DNA of 64,000 nucleotides, taken from Streptomyces sp. NBC_00223. Its GTDB lineage: Bacteria > Actinomycetota > Actinomycetes > Streptomycetales > Streptomycetaceae. Of this stretch, positions 49,399 through 59,113 are shown piece after piece. Location: NCBI RefSeq assembly GCF_036199905.1, contig NZ_CP108109.1, forward strand, positions 6,075,501 through 6,139,500, given 5' to 3'. The notes beneath the pieces were generated by a model. That model had not been told where the DNA came from, did not search any database, and worked only from the letters and a program-made list of their open reading frames with translations. Every line of letters starts with the position of its first letter. Position 1 is the first letter of the stretch. The position numbers were made by a program, and so were the translations under genes.

Positions 49399-49830
49399 TC
49401 AGAGCTTCGCGCCTTGGATTTCCTGCGAGCCGGCACTGATCCCCTGAGCGTCCTGCGGGCTGTCGGCAGACTCCTGGGTCTTCTGCGGCCTGTCGGCGAG
49501 CTTGAGCCAGATCACTCCGACGATGATCACGCCCAGCCACAGCGCCTGGACGGCGGTCAGAGTCTCGTTGAAGAAGACGGGACCCAGCAGCGCCGCACCG
49601 GCCGACCCGATTCCCGCCCAGACGGCATAGCCGATGCTGACCTCGATGGTGCGTAAGGCGACGCTCAGCGCCCAGAGCGTCAGAAGGAAGAACACGACGG
49701 CGACCAGCGACCACGTCAGGCGGGTGAAGCCATGGCTTCCACCGACGGAGAGCGCGTAGCCGATTTCGAAACCTCCGGCAAGGAGGAGCGTGAGCCAGGG
49801 GCTGGCTGAGGAGCGGCCGGTGTTGGGCAT
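49399..49830 (-). CDS. SMR-family multidrug efflux subunit (longer)
   Basis: A 143-aa four-helix SMR protein: LLLAGGFEIGYALSVGGSHG with the essential membrane Glu, WSLVAVVFFLLTLWALSVAL, VSIGYAVWAGIGSAGAALLG, and a hydrophilic Ser/Gln-rich C-terminal tail (SADSPQDAQGISAGSQEIQG) not normal for the family. It forms a pair with the next SMR gene, as in EbrAB or YkkCD, which need both subunits. ATG 49830. Confidence 0.9.
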   Translation of the reverse strand: MPNTGRSSASPWLTLLLAGGFEIGYALSVGGSHGFTRLTWSLVAVVFFLLTLWALSVALRTIEVSIGYAVWAGIGSAGAALLGPVFFNETLTAVQALWLGVIIVGVIWLKLADRPQKTQESADSPQDAQGISAGSQEIQGAKL

Positions 49831-49876
49831 GTGCCCGGGTCCTTTCGTAGAGATGGGTCGGGCGACGGCGGGATTC

Positions 49877-50197
49877 CTAGGCGGCACCGCTGAGCTGGAG
49901 GCCGACCACCCCGGTGATGATGACGACGATGCCGAGTGCCTTGCGCCAGTCCAGGCGCTGGCCGAAGAGCAGCGCTCCGAGAAGGGTGATGCCGATACCG
50001 GCGATGGAGGTCCAGATGGCGTAGCCGACGCCGACATCGAAGGTCAGCAGCGCCTTGCTGAGGAAGTAGGTGCCAATGGCACCGCTGACCAGGGTCGCGA
50101 TGGTCCACGGGCGGTTCTTGAAGCCTTCGGCCTTGCCGGCCGAGATGGCGACGGTGATCTCGAAGATGTCCGCGATGGCGAGGTAGAGCCACTGCAT
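49877..50197 (-). CDS. SMR-family multidrug efflux subunit (shorter)
   Basis: A 106-aa classical SMR protein: WLYLAIADIFEITVAISAGK (membrane Glu14 region), VGVGYAIWTSIAGIGITLLG, and LRKALGIVVIITGVVGLQLS-like C-terminus. Proton-coupled export of cationic compounds. Upstream partner of the longer SMR subunit; same operon as the DsbA-like and deaminase genes. Confidence 0.92.
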   Translation of the reverse strand: MQWLYLAIADIFEITVAISAGKAEGFKNRPWTIATLVSGAIGTYFLSKALLTFDVGVGYAIWTSIAGIGITLLGALLFGQRLDWRKALGIVVIITGVVGLQLSGAA

Positions 50198-50266: not shown

Positions 50267-50923
50267 TCAGCACCCGTCAGTTCCGCAGGCGGCACCTCGG
50301 GCGACGGCCTGTTCGATCTGGATGTCGAGCACGGCCTTGCGGATCTGGCCCACGGCGGGGACACCCTCTATGCGGTGGCGTTCACCGATGATGATCGTGG
50401 GAGCGACGGAGACGCCGTACGCCTCGGCGGTCCGCAGCGCCTTCTGATGGGTCCCGGTATAGGTTCCGGCCGTCAACGCCTCGGTGAAACCGGCCTTGTC
50501 CAGGCCCAGTTCGGAGGCGATGTCGGCGAGGACGTCCAGTCGGCCGATGTCCCGGTTCTCCTGGAAGAAGGCCCGCAGCATACGCGGGGTGTATTCCGCG
50601 GCCCTGCCGTGCTCGGCCGCGTACTGGTAGCCCTCGAAGGCCAGCCCGGTCCAGGGCTGCGGTGAGACGGTGGGCAGGGTGATGTCCACGCCCATCCGGC
50701 GGGCCATCGGGTAGACCGAACGGGCCCAGATCGCCGGCAGGTACTCGTCCTCCGGGCGCAGTGTCGGGGTCGGATGGGGCCGCAGTTCGAACGGCATCCA
50801 CTCGATCTCGACGTCGAGGTCGTGGGTGGCCTCGTGAAGGGGGCCCTCGGCGAGCATGCAGAACGGGCAGACATAGTCCGACCAGACCTTGATGCCGACC
50901 TTGCCGGTTTCCGTCCCGGTCAT
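50267..50923 (-). CDS. DsbA/FrnE-like thioredoxin-fold oxidoreductase
   Basis: A 218-aa cytoplasmic DsbA-family protein (FrnE type): VWSDYVCPFCMLAEG with the C19-P-F-C22 active site, a helical insertion, and cis-Pro loop VAPTIIIGERHRIEGV. Members isomerise disulfides or transfer glutathione in stress or polyketide pathways. It ends in two more cysteines (ACGTDGC). ATG 50923 overlaps the deaminase stop. Confidence 0.9.
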   Translation of the reverse strand: MTGTETGKVGIKVWSDYVCPFCMLAEGPLHEATHDLDVEIEWMPFELRPHPTPTLRPEDEYLPAIWARSVYPMARRMGVDITLPTVSPQPWTGLAFEGYQYAAEHGRAAEYTPRMLRAFFQENRDIGRLDVLADIASELGLDKAGFTEALTAGTYTGTHQKALRTAEAYGVSVAPTIIIGERHRIEGVPAVGQIRKAVLDIQIEQAVARGAACGTDGC

Positions 50924-51474: not shown

Positions 51475-51498
51475 TATGTATTTGCTTGTACGTACATA
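51475..51498. promoter_or_regulatory. MarR-type operator candidate
   Basis: TATGTA (51475-51480) and TACATA (51493-51498) form an A/T-rich inverted repeat in a GC-rich background between the divergent deaminase and MarR genes, as expected for a MarR dimer site. Confidence 0.6.
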
Positions 51499-51598
51499 TT
51501 TCCACGACCCTTAGTGTCCGCCGGTAAGAGCGCAGCGGGCAGACAGATCTTGCATGAACATGTATCTTGCTGTCAATGCCCATGGGAGGAGCTCCGCC

Positions 51599-52045
51599 AT
51601 GACCGTCATCTCTTATATGACCGCCGCATCCTCTGACCAGGGCATGTGGCGCAAGGTCCTCGCCCTGTACTCGCACGTGGAGGGTCAGCTCGCCCAGGCG
51701 CTCCAGCGCAAGCACGGGATAGGACTGTCCGAGTTCCGGGCCCTGGAGTGCCTCTCCCAGGCCGCCGACGGCGAGTTGCGCATGCAGGAGCTGGCCGGCG
51801 AGGTGGGGCTCGGCCAGAGTTCCGTGACACGCCTGGTCGGGCGGCTGGGCGCGGCCGGCTTCGCCTTCCGCGATCTGTGCCCCAACGACAAGCGCGGGGT
51901 GTACGCGGTCATCACCGAAGAGGGCAGGCGCCGTTATGCCGACGCCCGCAGCACATATGTCGAGGTGCTCAGCTCGGCGCTGAACACCGCGGGGGCCACC
52001 CCCGAGCTCGCCGGCGCCGTCCAGATGCTGCGCAGCGGCGCCTGA
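51599..52045 (+). CDS. MarR-family regulator
   Basis: A 148-aa MarR regulator: winged helix (LSEFRALECLSQAADGELRM, QSSVTRLVGRLGAAGF, KRGVYAVITEEGRRRY) with helical dimer arms. ATG 51599 with GGAGGAG fits best; an in-frame ATG at 51554 is weaker. It probably represses the divergent deaminase-DsbA-SMR operon, a typical inducible efflux arrangement. Confidence 0.9.
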   Translation: MTVISYMTAASSDQGMWRKVLALYSHVEGQLAQALQRKHGIGLSEFRALECLSQAADGELRMQELAGEVGLGQSSVTRLVGRLGAAGFAFRDLCPNDKRGVYAVITEEGRRRYADARSTYVEVLSSALNTAGATPELAGAVQMLRSGA

Positions 52046-52101: not shown

Positions 52102-52929
52102 CTAGGCACCGCTGTCACCGTTGGCCGTGCCACCCCCGGGTACCGTGTCGAACAGACGCCCGTAGCCGGTGATCCGTCGTGCCGCCTCACCGGCGCCGGC
52201 CAGGTGCAGGGCGTGCCAGAACAGCACCTGGTTGGCGGTCAGAACAGCGAAGTCCAGCTCCTTCTCCAAGGCGTTGATGACGCCGACCGCGCGGATGCCG
52301 TTGCCGGCGACCAGGACGGCGTCGGGCCGGTGTCCGGCGACGGTGGTACGGATCCAGTCGGACAGGGCCTCGGGCGTGATCAGCTTCTGGTTGCTGGGCA
52401 GGCCGCAGGGGCCGTGGTGGACGACCTTGAAGCCCTGTTCCGTGAAGTAGTCGGCGCCGAGGCCCGAGAGCCGGTCGTCGAACCACGGGGGGTTGACGAT
52501 CGCCACGCTGCGGGCGCCGAGCGCGGCGAAGCCGGTGACGGCGGCCGCGGTGGTGCCGGTGAGCGGGATGCCCCGGGTGCGGCGCGCCAGCCGGTCGAAC
52601 AGCTTCTGCTCGCCGCTCGCGCCGAGCACGTAGGCGGAGCTGGTGAAGCCGAGCGCGATCACGTCGAGCGGGGAGGCCGCGAGCAGTTCCACGGCCTCGT
52701 CGATGAGCGGCGGCTCCACGAAGGCGCGCACCGGGTCGTGCGGGATCTTCGGGTCCATCTCGCCGCCGGGCCGCATCGCACCGAAGTACACGCGGGAGCC
52801 GTGGATGAAGACGTCGTCGGGGGCGATCGCCTGGAACTCGGACTCCGGGCCGACATCCGCGTGCGGTACGACCACGCCGACCCGGGCCCGGGCCTCCCAG
52901 CCGTCCTTCTCCGCCTGGACATTGCTCAT
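52102..52929 (-). CDS. Asp/Glu-racemase-fold protein, maleate-isomerase/AMDase-like, without catalytic Cys
   Basis: A 275-aa member of the Asp/Glu racemase superfamily near maleate cis-trans isomerase and arylmalonate decarboxylase: VGVVVPHADVGPESEFQAIA, LDVIALGFTSSAYVLGASGE, GIPLTGTTAAAVTGFAALGA, AVLVAGNGIRAVGVINALEK. In the two places where the family has catalytic Cys (C-T-S and S-C-T-N-L-R) this protein has Phe and Gly; its only Cys is elsewhere (GPCGLP). Its chemistry should therefore differ. Last gene of the adenylation/ACP operon. ATG 52929. Confidence 0.82.
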   Translation of the reverse strand: MSNVQAEKDGWEARARVGVVVPHADVGPESEFQAIAPDDVFIHGSRVYFGAMRPGGEMDPKIPHDPVRAFVEPPLIDEAVELLAASPLDVIALGFTSSAYVLGASGEQKLFDRLARRTRGIPLTGTTAAAVTGFAALGARSVAIVNPPWFDDRLSGLGADYFTEQGFKVVHHGPCGLPSNQKLITPEALSDWIRTTVAGHRPDAVLVAGNGIRAVGVINALEKELDFAVLTANQVLFWHALHLAGAGEAARRITGYGRLFDTVPGGGTANGDSGA

Positions 52930-52949
52930 GACGGTCACTCCTCTCGGGC

Positions 52950-53636
52950 TCAGCTCGTCGCCTCGGCGGCCAGCGAGCCGCCGAGGACGGTGCCGGTGCC
53001 GCTGCTGTCCAGGAAACCGGGGTGCTTGCGGCGCATGTTGGACATGACGAACTCGTAGGGCACGTCGTCGAAGTCGCCGTAGTCGGCGACGAACTCCATG
53101 CTCTTGTTGCCCTTGTCGTCGAAGGGCTGGTGCACGCTGTCGGCGGTGCCGTCGAACTCCAGCGGCGTCATCCCGTACAGGCGGCACAGGATCTTGTTGA
53201 AGACCGGGGTGGCCTTCACCCACCGGCCGTCCAGGTGAACGCTGTTGAGACCGTGGAAGAAGACGTCCCCGCCGATGTGGGCGCGCAGCCGGTCGGAGGC
53301 GAGGTGGTTGCGCACGTCGCTGTAGTGCACACGGGCGGGGATGCCCACGGCCCGGCAGGCCGCCGCGTACAGGGCGGACTTGTGCAGGCAGAAGCCCTTC
53401 TTCGTGGTCGCGGTGTGGCTGGCCCGCAGCCCCCGGGGGGACAGGTCGGCCCCGTACACCTCGTAGAAGACGTCGTCGCGGACCGCGTAGTACAGCTCGA
53501 CGGCGAGCTGCCTCTTGTCGGCGGCCCGGTCGGCGACCGCGTCGTCGACGAAGGTCTGGACGGCGTCCGTCTCGTAGTCCAGGAAATCGGTGGGTGCGGT
53601 GAGCCGGGCGTGCTCGGCGCTCGTGATGGCGTTCAT
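52950..53636 (-). CDS. Transglutaminase-like (papain-fold) protein
   Basis: A 228-aa protein with a transglutaminase core: KKGFCLHKSALYAAACRAVG (C83), NSVHLDGRWVKATP (H134). The usual Asp after the His strand is replaced by Thr (KATP). Bacterial relatives hydrolyse or transfer amides, and in some pathways (AdmF of andrimid) form amide bonds between carrier-bound acyl groups; its place beside an ACP and adenylating enzyme makes that role possible (inference). ATG 53636 with GAGAGG. Confidence 0.85.
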   Translation of the reverse strand: MNAITSAEHARLTAPTDFLDYETDAVQTFVDDAVADRAADKRQLAVELYYAVRDDVFYEVYGADLSPRGLRASHTATTKKGFCLHKSALYAAACRAVGIPARVHYSDVRNHLASDRLRAHIGGDVFFHGLNSVHLDGRWVKATPVFNKILCRLYGMTPLEFDGTADSVHQPFDDKGNKSMEFVADYGDFDDVPYEFVMSNMRRKHPGFLDSSGTGTVLGGSLAAEATS

Positions 53637-53663
53637 GGTCACCCTCTCGTCAGCGTTCCGCGC

Positions 53664-54824
53664 TCACAGGCCCAGCAGGGCGGCGATGCGGTTGCGATGG
53701 ATCTCACTGGTGCCGGAGTAGATGGTTCCGCCGACGGCGTTGCGTACCTCGCGCTCGATGCCGGTGCCGGTCAGATAGCCCTGGCCGCCGAAGATCTGCA
53801 CCGCGTCCAGGGCGCTGCTCTTGTTGGCCTCGCTGACCACGGTCTTGGTCGCGGCGATGTCGATGGCCACGTCCTGTCCGGCCTGGACCTTGGCGCCGGT
53901 GTCGGTGAGCCACTTGCGGGAGGTCTCCAGCGCGATCTTCATGTCGGCGATCCGGTGCGAGACGCCCTGGAAGGCGCCGATCGGCCGGCCGAACTGGCGG
54001 CGGGTCTTGGCGTAGCGGATCACCCGCTCCAGGCGGTGGCTCATTTCGCCGAGCGTGAGGGAGAAGGAGAACAGGATCTCCCGCTTCATCACGTGGTCGA
54101 GGATCAGGAAGCCGGCGCCCTCACTGCCGATGCGGCGGGCGGCGGGCACCCGAAGCCCCTCGAAGGTCACCTCGCTCAGCGGAGAGGTACGCAGTCCCAT
54201 CTTGGCCAGCGGTTCACCGATCCTGAGGCCGGGGGAGTCCCGCTCGACGAGGAAGACGCTCAGGCCGAAGGGACCGGGGTCGCCGGTGCGCACGTACAGC
54301 AGGAACAGATCGGCGATCGGCGCGTTGGTGATGAACATCTTGCTGCCGTCGATGACGTAGTCGTCGCCGTCGCGGCGCGCGGTGGTGGTGATGTTCATGG
54401 CGTCCGAGCCGTGGTCCGGCTCGGTGACGGCGTGCGCGGTGATCAGCTCACCGGAGACGATCCCCGGCAGGAACCGGGACTTGAGCTGATCGCCGGCGAA
54501 CGCCTGGAGGGGTACGCCGACGCTGACGATCTGTGTGGAGGCGGAGAAGCTGAGGCCCGCGTCCCGGCAGGTGTGGCCGAGTCCTTCCAGGGCGCGCATC
54601 GTCTCGGTCAGGGTGCCGCCGAGGCCGCCCCAGCGCTTCTCGAAGGGAACCGCCAGAATCCCCGAGCGCTGAATGGTCTTCCATTTCTCCCAGGGGAATT
54701 CGGCGCGGGCGTCGAACTCGTCGAGGTCGCGATTGAGCGCCTCGGCCCACGGGGTGGCGAGTTCGTAGGGGTCGGAGGCGGAGTCGGGGGTTCCCGGAGC
54801 GGGCTGTGCGGGTGCGGATGTCAT
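53664..54824 (-). CDS. Acyl-CoA dehydrogenase-family flavoenzyme
   Basis: A 386-aa FAD-dependent dehydrogenase: VPFEKRWGGLGG, AHAVTEPDHGSDAMNITTTA, FITNAPIADLFLLYV, RRQFGRPIGAFQGVSHRIAD, VQIFGGQGYLTG, and TIYSGTSEIHRNRIAALLG, the region carrying the catalytic Glu. Together with an ACP and adenylating enzyme it likely oxidises an amino-acyl or acyl thioester on the carrier, as in prolyl-to-pyrrolyl carrier-protein pathways (inference). ATG 54824. Confidence 0.92.
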   Translation of the reverse strand: MTSAPAQPAPGTPDSASDPYELATPWAEALNRDLDEFDARAEFPWEKWKTIQRSGILAVPFEKRWGGLGGTLTETMRALEGLGHTCRDAGLSFSASTQIVSVGVPLQAFAGDQLKSRFLPGIVSGELITAHAVTEPDHGSDAMNITTTARRDGDDYVIDGSKMFITNAPIADLFLLYVRTGDPGPFGLSVFLVERDSPGLRIGEPLAKMGLRTSPLSEVTFEGLRVPAARRIGSEGAGFLILDHVMKREILFSFSLTLGEMSHRLERVIRYAKTRRQFGRPIGAFQGVSHRIADMKIALETSRKWLTDTGAKVQAGQDVAIDIAATKTVVSEANKSSALDAVQIFGGQGYLTGTGIEREVRNAVGGTIYSGTSEIHRNRIAALLGL

Positions 54825-54901
54825 GGCTGTGGCCGGCCTTCCGGTACGTGGTGAGCGGAAGAGCCGGGGCCCACCGGCGGGTGGGCCCCGGAACACGGAA
54901 C

Positions 54902-55276
54902 TCAGTACTGGGAGAAGCCGTCGGAGGACAGCGTGTGCTTCTCGTCTCCGCGCAGGGCCGGGCTGAAGACGGATATCAGTCTCAGATCCTCGTCGTCCGA
55001 CGCCACGAGGTGATGCGCGTCGTTCTCGTTGAGGGCGTAGATGGTTCCGTCCGTTAACTTGAAGCGCGTTCCGTCCTTGGTGATGACCTCGCCGGACCCA
55101 CCGACGCAGTAGCACGCCTCCAGGTGCTGCCGGTACTGCAACGCGCTCGAGGTGCCCCTGCGGACCAGGGTCTCGCACACGGTGAAGCCCATGTTGTCGG
55201 CCTCGGTCAGTAGACGGTGGCTGGTGCCGTTGCCCCACTCCACGGGGGTGACATCACTGGTGCTTCGCACGATCAC
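54902..55276 (-). CDS. Ectoine-synthase-like cupin (EctC paralogue)
   Basis: A 124-aa cupin of the EctC family: IVRSTSDVTPVEWGNGTSHR start, QYRQHLEACYCVGGSGEV and GTIYALNENDAHHL. The residues matching the iron ligands of characterised EctC (Glu, Tyr, His) are kept as E53, Y80 and H88. EctC closes the ring of N-acetyl-diaminobutyrate by losing water. No ectA or ectB is near, so another substrate, probably carrier-bound or released in this operon, is likely. GTG 55276 follows AAGGAG. Confidence 0.88.
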   Translation of the reverse strand: MIVRSTSDVTPVEWGNGTSHRLLTEADNMGFTVCETLVRRGTSSALQYRQHLEACYCVGGSGEVITKDGTRFKLTDGTIYALNENDAHHLVASDDEDLRLISVFSPALRGDEKHTLSSDGFSQY

Positions 55277-55331
55277 GGCAAGTCTCCTTCGAGGTAGGGA
55301 GGGCTGGGCTTTCCGGGGTTCGCCCGGAAGA

Positions 55332-55589
55332 TCAGAGAGTGGCCCGGGTCGCGTCTTCGATGAAGGCGACAATGGCCCCGATGCTGCGGAAGTTCTCCGG
55401 CTTCAGCGGGATGTCGTCGACGGGGATGGCGTAGGCACGGGAGAGGTGCGAGACGATCCTGACCAGTCCGAGGCTGTCGACGATTCCGCTGTCGATCAGG
55501 TCGAATTCGGTGGTCAGGTCGGCGGTTTCCTCTCCGTCGAGGAATTCGGCGACGACATAGCCGCGGATCTCGTCCTGCAGAATGCTCAT
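55332..55589 (-). CDS. Acyl carrier protein
   Basis: An 85-aa carrier protein: LTTEFDLIDSGIVDSLGLVR with the phosphopantetheine-attachment Ser39 in D-S-L, and IPLKPENFRSIGAIVAFIED. A discrete single domain, coupled to the adenylating enzyme by a 4-nt ATGA overlap, so it is that enzyme's likely acceptor. Confidence 0.92.
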   Translation of the reverse strand: MSILQDEIRGYVVAEFLDGEETADLTTEFDLIDSGIVDSLGLVRIVSHLSRAYAIPVDDIPLKPENFRSIGAIVAFIEDATRATL

Positions 55590-57064
55590 GGGCGATGTCC
55601 CTTCTGGCGTAGCGCCTTGATGAGGTCGCGGTCGGGCTTTCCGGTCGCGGTGCGCGGCAGGGGTGCGTCGCTCACCTGGACCGAAGAGGGAATGGCGTGC
55701 CGGGGCAGATGCGCGGCACTGTGGGTGCGCAGCCGCAGGGAGGTGAGCGCGGTGCCGGGCCGCCGGGTCACCTGCGCGTGCAGCCGGTAACCGGCCTCCG
55801 GGTCGGGGAGGGCCACCACGGCTGCCTCGGAGACGTCCGGATGGGCGGCCAGGACGTTCTCGATCTCCTGGACGTTGGTGCGCACGCCGCGGACCTTGAC
55901 CTGGAAGTCGGTCCGGCCGTCGAGCCGGTGCAGGCCCTCGGCGTCCCGGGAGACGATGTCGCCGGTGCGGTAGAAGACCTCGGGCCCGCCGTCGGGCGCG
56001 GGGACGAACACGCCCTCGTTGCGCCCGCGTTGCAGGTATCCGGAGGTCTGGAACGGGGTCGTCACGAGAAGTTCACCGGTGCCGGGCCCGTCGAGGATCT
56101 TCCCCTCGTCGTCGAGGAGCAGGGCCCGTACGCCGGGCAGCGGGCGGCCGATCGGAGTCTTCCCCTCCGCCGCCCCGGGGTCGACGTCCTGGATGAAGCT
56201 GTCGTTGGTCTCGGTGCAGCCGAAGACGTTGTGGAAGCGGGCACCGGGGAAGGCCGCGCCGAGCCGGGCCAGCAGCGGGGGCGGCATCGCGTCACCGGTG
56301 AAGATCACCGTGCGGACGCGCGGGTACGGGATGTCGTCCTGGGTGAGCAGCCGGAACAGCATGGGTACGCCCTGCACGAAGGTGACTTCGTGCTCCGCGA
56401 CCAGGCCGCGCAGGTAGCCGGCGTCGGCGCCGGCGTCCTGCTCGACGAGCACGACGCCGGCGCCGAGCCGCAGCCCGGTCCAGACGTCGAGCAGGGAGAG
56501 GTCGAAGTTGAGCGGGGCGTAACTGAGCAGCGTGTCCTGCCCGGTGAGACCGAAGTGTCCGGTGGCCCAGTCGGCGAACCGGTCGAAGGCGTCGGCCATG
56601 ATGGGCACGATCTTCGGCGTTCCGGTGGATCCGGAGGTGGTGAGCAGCAGAGGCGAGGCGGCGGGGTCGACGGCGTCGAATCCGCGAGCCGCCTCCTCGT
56701 CCCGTGCGATGTCGTCGTGGTGCAGCGCGCCCGTGCCGTCGACGGTGAGGACGGCGGAGCAACGGGCCTGCGCGGTGAGCGTTCCCAGAGCCGCGCTGCC
56801 CAGCCCGGGAGAAGGGACAAGGACGGCGTAGCCCGCCCGGAAGGCCCCGATGAGCAGGGCGATCGTCTCCGGTGTCTTGTGCGCGGGTACGCACAGCGGG
56901 CGGCCGCGGTCGAGGTCCAGGCGGTCCAGCGCGGCGGACAGCTCCCCGGCGAGGTCGACGAGCCGGCGGTACGTCGTCCGCTGCCCGCCCAGTACCAGGG
57001 CCACGGAGTGGGGCCGATCCCGCGCATGCGCGGCCAACGCGTCATAGAGACGTGGTGATGGCAC
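55586..57064 (-). CDS. Amino-acid/acyl adenylating enzyme
   Basis: A 492-aa stand-alone adenylation domain: P-loop LLLTTSGSTGTPKIVP, NFDLSLLDVW, NVFGCTETNDS, GEVFYRTGDIV-type core (EVFYRTGDIVSRDA), GRTDFQVKVRGVRTN, and the catalytic Lys in RTATGKPDRDLI. It resembles NRPS-like free-standing enzymes that load an amino acid on a discrete carrier. NFDLSLLDVW and the binding-pocket region favour an amino-acid substrate, but which one cannot be said. First gene of the operon, with a promoter at 57223-57250. Confidence 0.92.
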   Translation of the reverse strand: MPSPRLYDALAAHARDRPHSVALVLGGQRTTYRRLVDLAGELSAALDRLDLDRGRPLCVPAHKTPETIALLIGAFRAGYAVLVPSPGLGSAALGTLTAQARCSAVLTVDGTGALHHDDIARDEEAARGFDAVDPAASPLLLTTSGSTGTPKIVPIMADAFDRFADWATGHFGLTGQDTLLSYAPLNFDLSLLDVWTGLRLGAGVVLVEQDAGADAGYLRGLVAEHEVTFVQGVPMLFRLLTQDDIPYPRVRTVIFTGDAMPPPLLARLGAAFPGARFHNVFGCTETNDSFIQDVDPGAAEGKTPIGRPLPGVRALLLDDEGKILDGPGTGELLVTTPFQTSGYLQRGRNEGVFVPAPDGGPEVFYRTGDIVSRDAEGLHRLDGRTDFQVKVRGVRTNVQEIENVLAAHPDVSEAAVVALPDPEAGYRLHAQVTRRPGTALTSLRLRTHSAAHLPRHAIPSSVQVSDAPLPRTATGKPDRDLIKALRQKGHRP

Positions 57065-57222: not shown

Positions 57223-57250
57223 ACGATAGCGAAGGTACATGCAGAGTCAA
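57223..57250 (-). promoter_or_regulatory. Promoter of the adenylation/ACP operon
   Basis: On the minus strand TTGACT (57245-57250) and TATCGT (57223-57228) are spaced 16 bp, about 160 bp ahead of the operon start, in an A/T-richer patch with GCATGC palindromes. Confidence 0.55.
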
Positions 57251-57544
57251 GCATGCATCAGACGATATCTGTTGTGACAGAAGTCACTCCTGTGGCCAAC
57301 GCTTCTTGCTTGATCAATGGTTTCGAAGGCGAGGAGGGGAGGCCGCCGAGGTGCCAAGGCCGTTACGGGACGCTTCGTCTCCGCGGCCGGGCGTTCACGG
57401 GCGACTGCTGGGCCGGCCCGGAACGGTGAGGGCCGCTCAGGGGGCCGGGCGGCTCTCTTGGCCCATTCACCCGGACGGGGTCGGCGGGGAAGGGCAGAAG
57501 TGCCGCTCGGACGTCGCTCGGCGGCGTACGTCCCGGGCTTGCCG

Positions 57545-58151: not shown

Positions 58152-59113
58152 TCTTCGCGAAACGTTGTGAACCGCTCGTCCGTGGGCGGTTCGGGCGAAC
58201 TCATCCTGGTTGTGGGCAGACGTAAAGCCCCTGGTAGGACAGGTCTCACCACAAGATCTTGTCCGAACCACCAGAGGCTTCACGTTGGTCACCTATGTTG
58301 CCACGCTCGACGTCCCGCGCCATGTCGTGGATCACCTTTCCCGACTGCTGGCCGCCCACCGGCGGCGATTGCGCACTCCGCGGGGGTCGCGGGCGCTGGG
58401 TCCGTTCCGTCAGGCCGTGCTGGTGCTGCGCTGGTTCCGTCAGCGGGGCTGCGTGCACTGCCTGGCGCGGGACGCCGGGGTCTCCCAGGCCACCGGTTAC
58501 CGGTACCTCCACGAAGGCATCGACGTCCTCGCAGAGCAGGCCCCCGACCTGCACGACGTCCTGAACCGCTGCCGACAGGAAGACATGACGCACATCTTGG
58601 ACGGCACACTTATCGAGTCCGACCGCCTCACGGGCGTCCGCGACAACGGCAACGACCTCTGGTTCAGCCAGAAACACAAGGCATTCGGCGGCAACGTGCA
58701 GTTCCTGTCCTCCCCGGACGGCACCCCACTGTGGGTCTCCGACGTCGAACCCGGCTCCACCCCCGACATCACCGCAGCCCGCATCCACGCCCTGCCCGCC
58801 CTGTACAAAGCCGCCGCCGACGGTCTGCCGACACTCGCCGACAAGGGCTACACCGGCGCCGGCATCGGCATCCACATCCCGGTCCGCCGCCCCAAAGGCA
58901 AATCCGAACAAGCCCTCCACGCCGACACCCGCACCACGAACACCCTGATCAGAGACCTGCGCGCCCTCGGCGAACGCGCCGCCGCCGAACTCAAGGAGCG
59001 CTGGCGCGCGCTCAAGTACGTCTCACTCAGTCCCAGCCGGATCGGCGACATAGCCCGCGCCGCACTCGTCCTCAACGGAATCTGGAAATGATCTTCGTTG
59101 AGAAAACCTCAGT
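58128..59113 (+). mobile_element. IS5-family insertion sequence, 986 bp
   Basis: Perfect 15-bp terminal inverted repeats ACTGAGGTTTTCTCA (58128-58142; complement at 59099-59113), extending to 20 bp with one mismatch. GCC flanks both ends and could be the 3-bp target duplication typical of some IS5 subgroups. One transposase gene fills the element. It appears intact. Confidence 0.9.
58285..59091 (+). CDS. IS5-family DDE transposase
   Basis: A 268-aa single-frame transposase: helix-turn-helix (LARDAGVSQATGYRYLHEGI), first Asp in MTHILDGTLIESDR, NDLWFSQKHKAFGGNVQF, second Asp region LPTLADKGYTGAG, and the Glu helix in ERAAAELKERWRALKYVSLS. All three catalytic positions seem kept. TTG 58285 has GAGG at good spacing; an upstream start at 58210 is possible. 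Confidence 0.9.
   Translation: MVTYVATLDVPRHVVDHLSRLLAAHRRRLRTPRGSRALGPFRQAVLVLRWFRQRGCVHCLARDAGVSQATGYRYLHEGIDVLAEQAPDLHDVLNRCRQEDMTHILDGTLIESDRLTGVRDNGNDLWFSQKHKAFGGNVQFLSSPDGTPLWVSDVEPGSTPDITAARIHALPALYKAAADGLPTLADKGYTGAGIGIHIPVRRPKGKSEQALHADTRTTNTLIRDLRALGERAAAELKERWRALKYVSLSPSRIGDIARAALVLNGIWK

Follow-up and report, generated by a model that had tools for sequence, protein, structure and literature searches.

The window analyzed here, a 64,000-nucleotide stretch of the Streptomyces sp. NBC_00223 genome (contig NZ_CP108109.1, positions 6,075,501 to 6,139,500), which is a single contig of 7.96 Mb, holds a cassette of eleven genes that most likely turn glutamine into a small reactive aminopyrrole. 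A preliminary description of the same DNA had recognized a compact operon of six genes at 52102-57064. All six were confirmed on the minus strand, in the order and at the coordinates claimed, and no gap between them exceeds 77 bp; the set was too short, however, as five more conserved genes carry the cassette to 49399, of which the operon makes up about half. The features, in window coordinates, are given below.

55586-57064, minus strand: A, free-standing adenylation enzyme, 492 amino acids (aa), GTG start (Pfam AMP-binding, 184.8 bits)
55332-55589, minus strand: acyl or peptidyl carrier protein (ACP/PCP), 85 aa, attachment serine in DSLGL (PF00550, 22.4 bits, cut-off 20.8)
54902-55276, minus strand: EctC-like cupin cyclase, 124 aa, GTG start (Pfam Ectoine_synth, 108.4 bits)
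53664-54824, minus strand: ACAD, flavin dehydrogenase of the acyl-carrier type, 386 aa (Pfam acyl-CoA-dehydrogenase domains)
52950-53636, minus strand: TG, transglutaminase-fold cysteine enzyme, 228 aa (Transglut_core, PF01841, 54.8 bits)
52102-52929, minus strand: AMD1, protein like arylmalonate decarboxylase, maleate isomerase and EutA, 275 aa (Pfam Amdase, 51.5 bits)
51554-52045, plus strand: MarR-family regulator, open reading frame of 163 aa
50920-51444, minus strand: zinc deaminase like TadA and guanine deaminase, open reading frame of 174 aa, TTG start uncertain
50267-50923, minus strand: DsbA-like thioredoxin-fold protein with a CPxC motif, start picked by eye, overlapping the deaminase stop
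49877-50197, minus strand: SMRa, small multidrug resistance subunit 1, 106 aa (PF00893, 69.1 bits)
49399-49830, minus strand: SMRb, small multidrug resistance subunit 2, start picked by eye (PF00893, 69.3 bits on 49399-49881)
57239-57253, minus strand: operator-like site TGCTTGNNNNTRCAT, 5' of A
51483-51497, plus strand: operator-like site TGCTTGNNNNTRCAT, between the deaminase and MarR genes

The Pfam scores of the six core proteins all exceed the gathering cut-offs, and a Pfam search of these proteins found no condensation, ketosynthase or thioesterase domain, as the preliminary description had stated. Read from the sequence, A and ACP overlap by 4 bp, and the spacers that follow measure 55 (ACP-EctC), 77 (EctC-ACAD), 27 (ACAD-TG) and 20 bp (TG-AMD1); the MarR gene sits between the two arms of the cassette. 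As a candidate for the one promoter of the preliminary description, a single promoter-like match was found upstream of A, at 57250-57223 on the minus strand (mean of 0.5 in shuffled sequences). The operator-like site occurs in the window only at the two positions given above (0.01 expected), and in the whole genome 2 occurrences were found, both at the cassette promoters, against 1 for a reversed-pattern control.

A TG pattern scan of species-genome contigs, which covered close relatives, gave 31 confirmed loci, onto which proteins of the window and of its sister clusters were mapped by tblastn (stretches of up to 21 kb; loci are given below by L numbers, genomes by G numbers). All 31 close relatives of TG adjoin A, ACP, EctC and ACAD, a linkage that is not chance; a check for unlinked genes in relatives, put forward with the preliminary description, thus left the operon standing. 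The type found in the window, type 1, accounts for 24 of the 31 loci (L016-L028, L031-L033, L038, L039, L041-L046), in Streptomyces, Kribbella, Lentzea, Kitasatospora, Alteromonas (L045) and Grimontia (L046). All eleven genes lie within the fetched stretch in 23 of them, and the 24th, L044, ends at a contig end. Type 1 was also seen in Streptomyces globosus (L010) and Vibrio (L048), and across two phyla the accessory genes stay with its core, though arranged in several different orders. A small DUF6253 gene follows AMD1 at L010:13475-13735 and in most Streptomyces type 1 loci; it was not detected in the window.

The other seven loci, type 2 (L029, L030, L034-L037, L040), contain the first five genes together with a PF04227-like (pseudouridine-glycosidase-like) protein, an HAD phosphatase, an MFS pump and a distant AMD (26-30%). 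PF04227 scored 336 bits in L034, whose protein was the tblastn query that found the other members. L035 additionally carries MarR and deaminase genes, and a locus of Burkholderia stagnalis (L047) is of type 2 with a deaminase. Streptomyces griseus NRRL WC-3645 holds both types (L017 type 1, L030 type 2). In S. triticisoli, PsuG, HAD and MFS genes and pieces of TG and ACAD (L028:1-4100) lie directly beside a full type 1 set, and may be read as a hybrid or as a decayed second cluster.

Beyond the close relatives, distant TG homologues without core neighbors were found in Polaromonas (L014), Rhodococcus (L015) and four genomes of the phylum (L092-L095), and in S. albogriseolus (L052) TG lies ∼87 kb from an EctC-like gene on the same plasmid, so that outside the window type the genes are not always linked. 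A census of 394 Streptomycetaceae genomes gave TG profile matches in 37 at an E value of at most 1e-30. AMD1 scored above 470 bits in 19 of these, in each case within 250 bp of TG; the 19 were counted on TG and AMD1, and their accessory genes were viewed only where the loci recur in the scan. The remaining 18 comprise four with the PF04227-like protein, three with TrpD, TrpA, TrpF and TrpC paralogues, three with those and TrpB2, six with TrpB2 alone, one (L068) with the core and the SMR pair but no AMD, and one (L078) with a truncated TG and SMR genes. AMD1-like proteins without TG were present in seven further Streptomycetaceae genomes. TG matched in 6 of 396 genomes of the phylum, the window's own included, and no cassette was found in the four of the five others that were fetched. 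In the family to which Grimontia belongs, AMD1 was found in 3 of 197 genomes, namely Grimontia itself, one with a full cassette (L091) and one with a decayed one (L090). Census and scan loci overlap (G045 is L035, and G349 is L036), and the two sets were not summed.

The gene content of type 2 is that published for showdomycin of Streptomyces showdoensis. In the pathway as drawn in a review (PMC8724604), cyclization takes place on free glutamine, the cyclase SdmE converting L-glutamine to 2-amino-1-pyrroline-5-carboxylate, and is followed by an adenylation enzyme (SdmC), a PCP (SdmD), oxidation, hydrolysis, a YeiN-like C-glycosynthase (SdmA), a phosphatase (SdmB) and non-enzymatic late steps; a title among its references mentions a pyrrole intermediate (PMC8724604). 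The window shares with showdomycin the A enzyme, the PCP, the EctC-like cyclase, and the oxidation and release enzymes, and clusters of showdomycin gene content have the same A pocket code and an AMD homologue (with the deaminase in the two loci named above). It differs in having no YeiN/PsuG-like C-glycosynthase and no adjoining HAD phosphatase, in an SMR pair that replaces the MFS pump, and in its added DsbA-like and MarR genes. PF04227 had no match in the window's whole genome (3 of 14 genomes were positive in a control), and no SdmB-like HAD phosphatase was found in the cassette, the only match, at 35%, lying ∼6 kb upstream of A. Since the search for a C-glycosynthase found none in the genome, we do not class the cassette as a showdomycin cluster, and its product should not be a C-nucleoside. 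The showdomycin pyrrole intermediate itself is said, in work by Ren from 2021, to be 2-amino-1H-pyrrole-5-carboxylic acid, and to oxidize in air.

The ten specificity positions of A, assigned by motif in GrsA numbering, read D-L-L-M-I-T-V-D-S-K. This code is common to 27 window-type, 8 showdomycin-type and 1 TrpB2-type A enzymes, with hydrophobic swaps at 239, 278, 299 and 322, and H at 278 in L047, as the only variation among the 36. Three of four A enzymes from clusters with Trp paralogues agree with it, and that of Aliiroseovarius (L013) differs. These counts, like those for EctC below, omit L002 (a fragment), L014, L015, and the other EctC loci L049, L053, L054 and L055; L052 has no A in its stretch. 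Judged from the pocket residues, Asp330 could pair with an amidine. The attachment serine of the ACP, S39, is present in 41 of 41 proteins.

By its PF06339 match and its iron ligands, E57, Y84 and H92, the EctC-like protein belongs to the ectoine synthase family, and it also scores above the NF009806 cut-off. Compared with Paenibacillus lautus EctC, all 41 proteins of types 1 to 4 retain W21, S23, R25, T40, Y52, E57, Y84 and H92. Position 38, which is N in P. lautus EctC and contacts the substrate carboxylate there, according to a published study (PMC6344544), is C in the window and C, A or T in all 41 cassette proteins, with N or H in none. The control was a group of seven PF06339 proteins from the genus with high scores (181.8-188.6 bits), which were accepted as true ectoine synthases by score alone; they have H38, W51 and C104, so that both reference groups carry a polar residue at position 38. 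The corresponding window residues are C, Q and S, and C104 is kept in 9 of the 41. In common with ectoine synthase (PDB 5onn/5onm) the window group thus has the cupin family, the iron ligands and most substrate residues; it differs in C, A or T at 38 in place of N or H, in Q or E at 51, and in a three-residue insertion after W21. A lost carboxylate contact would fit a thioester-bound substrate. No PF06339 protein besides the cassette's own (about 106 bits) was found in the window's genome or in G002, and as the only such match in its genome the protein is probably not there for ectoine. Halomonas elongata EctC is described as making the cyclic amidine ADPC from glutamine in a side reaction (PMC6344544). 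As the window's protein retains the iron ligands and, with one exception, the residues by which a cyclase contacts its substrate, release of the product by the cupin, one of two options offered in the preliminary description, is unlikely. Orphan EctC-like proteins with Cys38 also occur on rhizobial plasmids (L049 and L053), in L053 close to genes that carry saccharopine dehydrogenase and D-alanine-D-alanine ligase annotations.

The predicted model of AMD1 (mean pLDDT 83.7) bears out the fold ascribed to it earlier, that of a racemase, with Foldseek E values of 3e-13 to arylmalonate decarboxylase and 1e-12 to maleate isomerase and target TM of about 0.8-0.87; the catalytic cysteines of that fold, however, are missing in all 35 proteins compared (L040, which ends at a contig end, is omitted from AMD counts). 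AMD1 shares the dioxyanion serine (35/35) and threonine (29/35) of the arylmalonate decarboxylase, maleate isomerase and EutA fold, but the catalytic positions G74 and C188 are F and G in AMD1 and across the 35, with cysteine in none. Newly conserved are D25, E29, E31, H43 and R46 (35/35) and H23 (34/35). C175, found in 28 of 28 window-type proteins and in none of the seven others, may provide a cysteine at a new place. The best-scoring model is EutA, at 81.8 bits against a cut-off of 318; because EutA, of ectoine utilization, handles cyclic-amidine acids, its place as nearest model fits the substrate proposed below. AMD1-like proteins outside the cassette (L056-L060, L079 and L080) are 49-61% identical in the aligned parts. 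In four of these seven loci the adjacent gene is one that we take to be DoxX-like, and as a clue to the AMD1 reaction the neighbors were uninformative.

We propose, with a probability of about two in three, that the cassette encodes a ribose-free relative of the showdomycin pathway, leading from glutamine to 2-amino-1H-pyrrole-5-carboxylate, the product being exported unribosylated. The EctC-like cupin would cyclize L-glutamine to the 2-amino-1-pyrroline-5-carboxyl unit, either free before loading or on the carrier; A would activate and ACP hold the acyl unit, the ACAD-like flavoprotein would oxidize it to 2-amino-1H-pyrrole-5-carboxyl-ACP, and TG, acting as a thioesterase, would free the aminopyrrole acid. 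As the genome has no C-glycosynthase, the free acid would go to AMD1 rather than to ribose, most likely for decarboxylation to 2-aminopyrrole, or for other processing of a cyclic amidine acid, and the SMR pair would export the product as a cation. Aminopyrroles of this kind reportedly oxidize in air towards maleimide-type electrophiles. The deaminase, which may hydrolyze the amidine or aminopyrrole, the DsbA-like protein and the SMR pair would serve in handling and self-protection, with MarR as the switch for both promoters. We infer all of these reactions, the order of cyclization and loading, and everything after release, the core chemistry by comparison with showdomycin-type clusters. On the same comparison, the outline of the preliminary description (a carrier-bound route, ring closure by EctC, oxidation by ACAD, release by TG and a small cyclic product) probably holds; what it had missed was the tie to showdomycin.

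The release step admits the best of the alternatives. TG carries PF01841 and the Cys-His of the catalytic triad, which place it in the transglutaminase-like superfamily, and C83, H128, N147 and also D162 are present in 39 of 39 proteins, N147 and D162 being candidates for the third, Asp or Asn, residue of the triad. Its predicted model (pLDDT 91.8) has the fold of transglutaminases and arylamine N-acetyltransferases; the best match is 3isr (Z 14.1, root mean square deviation [rmsd] 3.9, 158 residues aligned), with Z about 11 for transglutaminases, up to 10.1 for arylamine N-acetyltransferases, and 9.8 for the geldanamycin amide synthase GdmF (8ot2; rmsd 3.2, 161 aligned). Transglutaminase-fold enzymes are known to form amides, and from its resemblance to GdmF and the N-acetyltransferases, as well as to transglutaminases, TG might instead join the aminopyrrole acyl unit to an amine, giving a pyrrole-amide. 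We consider this improbable, though it is the strongest of the rivals: the eleven-gene cassette holds no obvious gene for an amine partner, TG is kept in the showdomycin-type clusters, where the free acid is C-glycosylated, and the sister cluster L051 has an annotated alpha/beta hydrolase and no TG. In Polaromonas (L014) the genes around a TG relative include those for CoA ligase and thioesterase, in a cluster for CoA-thioester degradation. The hydrolase that stands without TG in L051 and the thioester context in L014 are the grounds on which hydrolysis is preferred over amide formation.

The oxidation step raises a second alternative, of nearly the same low standing, in which A loads proline, ACAD forms pyrrole-2-carboxyl-ACP and the EctC-like protein has another role, as in the prolyl-carrier pyrrole pathways of RedM/RedO/RedW and PigI/PigG/PigA. 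These pathways have the logic of a free-standing A, a PCP and an ACAD in common with the window. The best NCBIfam matches of ACAD are indeed the prolyl-PCP dehydrogenases PigA (337.7 bits) and RedW (325.5 bits), but both scores fall far under the cut-offs (500 and 650, respectively). The prolyl-carrier ligases 6o6e and 7thn are among the PDB matches of A, and its DLL may resemble the code of prolyl ligases; the pocket alignments obtained were all to linear gramicidin synthase. Against proline, the window group always comes with a cyclase, which would be useless on that route and whose iron ligands are intact in 41 of 41 proteins, and the A code is the one found in clusters with a C-glycosynthase.

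The accessory proteins bear on a third, still less probable possibility, that the aminopyrrole is used inside the cell and the SMR pair and deaminase are an unrelated neighboring resistance function. MarR and SMR genes are common resistance genes. In the actinobacterial type 1 loci, for nine proteins without SMRb, pairwise identities correlate with those of TG at Spearman coefficients of 0.81-0.85 (A, ACP, EctC, ACAD and AMD), 0.80 (MarR), 0.76 (deaminase) and 0.74 (DsbA), positive values also to be expected from common host ancestry by itself; SMRa, at 0.42, tracks TG poorly. This possibility is countered by the recurrence of the five accessory genes with the core in 23 of the 24 type 1 scan loci, in differing orders and in both phyla, and by the operator-like site at each of the two window promoters. 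The deaminase, closest to guanine deaminase 1wkq, keeps H72, C102 and C105 in 29 of 29 proteins and E74 in 28 of 29, and CPxC is present in 26 of 26 DsbA-like proteins. The SMR proteins score above the PF00893 cut-off and carry the membrane glutamate of efflux pumps in 26 of 26 (SMRa) and 25 of 25 (SMRb). In the Vibrionaceae genome G894 (L090:7227-11472), one frame joins A 1-206 to TG 114-210 and AMD1 stops after about 161 aligned residues, whereas open frames remain for the deaminase, SMRa, SMRb, DsbA and MarR (against Alteromonas queries, A is 67% identical over 1-206, TG 80% over 114-210 and AMD1 86% over 1-161). In this locus, by its reading frames, the maker half is gone and the handling half stays. 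In the window, an open reading frame resembling, by eye, the DDE transposase of an insertion element lies at 58210-59091 on the plus strand, ∼1.1 kb upstream of A.

Least probable of all, and rejected as the main reading, is ectoine biosynthesis or modification (A loading N-acetyl-diaminobutyrate or ectoine, ectoine being modified or dehydro-ectoine made, and AMD1 acting like EutA), which the family membership of EctC and the best model of AMD1 favor, but which is opposed by the sole PF06339 protein in the genome (EctA and EctB were not searched for), by residues 38, 51 and 104, which differ from those of the genus ectoine synthases, and by the sister clusters, which match the glutamine-based showdomycin route. 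The amidines noformicin and anthelvencin contain an unoxidized cyclic amidine; a product of this type, an idea that came from the ADPC reaction of EctC, was dropped as the main reading, as ACAD accompanies the core and showdomycin fits better.

Several points weigh against the proposed aminopyrrole pathway. In L050, one of the clusters with Trp paralogues, neither TG nor a match to the L051 hydrolase is present in the mapped stretch, which leaves product release there unexplained. Asn38 is not universal, His being found in the seven PF06339 proteins of the genus, and the change at position 38 argues for cyclization on the carrier, whereas the scheme in PMC8724604 draws free glutamine. Decarboxylation by AMD1 is a weak guess for a protein that has lost the cysteine used by arylmalonate decarboxylase. 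The operator pattern was derived from these and related promoters before the search, and matches exactly in only 9 of 26 other type 1 loci, the nine being the scan loci with the highest TG identity (75-88%). SMRa diverges out of step with TG, as described above, and L090 is a single decayed locus. Finally, clusters are called "showdomycin-type" here for a gene content that agrees with a review, and the exact pyrrole is the one attributed above to the 2021 work by Ren.

The core also appears in other settings. In Streptomyces clusters L012, L050, L051, L063, L065 and L067, a group that includes S. clavuligerus pSCL4, A, ACP, EctC and ACAD are interleaved with TrpD, TrpA, TrpF and TrpC paralogues; from their gene content, these clusters look as if the aminopyrrole enters a route like that from anthranilate to indole, which would give a fused pyrrolo-pyrrole. 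In three Streptomycetaceae loci (L071, L072 and L073), the Trp-paralogue set is joined by a TrpB2-like enzyme, with a further adenylation-like match nearby, and possibly forms a complete pathway to a tryptophan analogue. The core is followed by a TrpB2-like pyridoxal phosphate enzyme alone in L011 (637 bits to NF009057), L064, L066, L069, L076 and L077, and a TrpB2-like gene lies near the core in L075; synthesis of an aminopyrrolyl-alanine is possible in these TrpB2-only clusters. On a plasmid of Aliiroseovarius crassostreae (L013), the core, with its different A code, is accompanied by two ketosynthase-like genes and by TrpD and TrpC paralogues, and eight Aliiroseovarius records match both TG and EctC (one was viewed).

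The core chemistry is already known from showdomycin. A literature search, covering titles and abstract starts of open-access papers, found no description of the window-type cassette, and nothing on the ribose-free form, on its occurrence in two phyla or on the accessory genes that go with it. The recurrence of the set in distant bacteria makes an undescribed small molecule its probable product. Tentatively, and well short of an even chance, bacteria of two phyla may make a diffusible, sugar-free 2-aminopyrrole, harmless when exported by the SMR pump, and air would convert it to a maleimide-type poison that reacts with thiols; immunity would come from the deaminase, the DsbA-like protein and the pump, whose genes one Vibrionaceae genome retains although the maker genes are gone. 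On this reading the aminopyrrole would also be a general building block, attached to ribose, coupled to serine by TrpB2-like enzymes, or run through TrpD, TrpF, TrpC and TrpA as if it were anthranilate, to give fused pyrrolo-pyrrole look-alikes of tryptophan.

In PMC8724604, the outcome described for this set of enzymes is a single C-nucleoside antibiotic. Among Streptomycetaceae the window's form is apparently more common than any other, to judge from the 19 of 37 TG-marker genomes with AMD1 beside TG. With no ribose step, and with export and protection genes of its own where these were viewed, the cassette points to a widespread small molecule that has probably been overlooked. It provides a defined five-enzyme test for what we suspect to be a general aminopyrrole supply line, and in AMD1 a candidate for a new role of a cysteine-less member of the aspartate-racemase fold.

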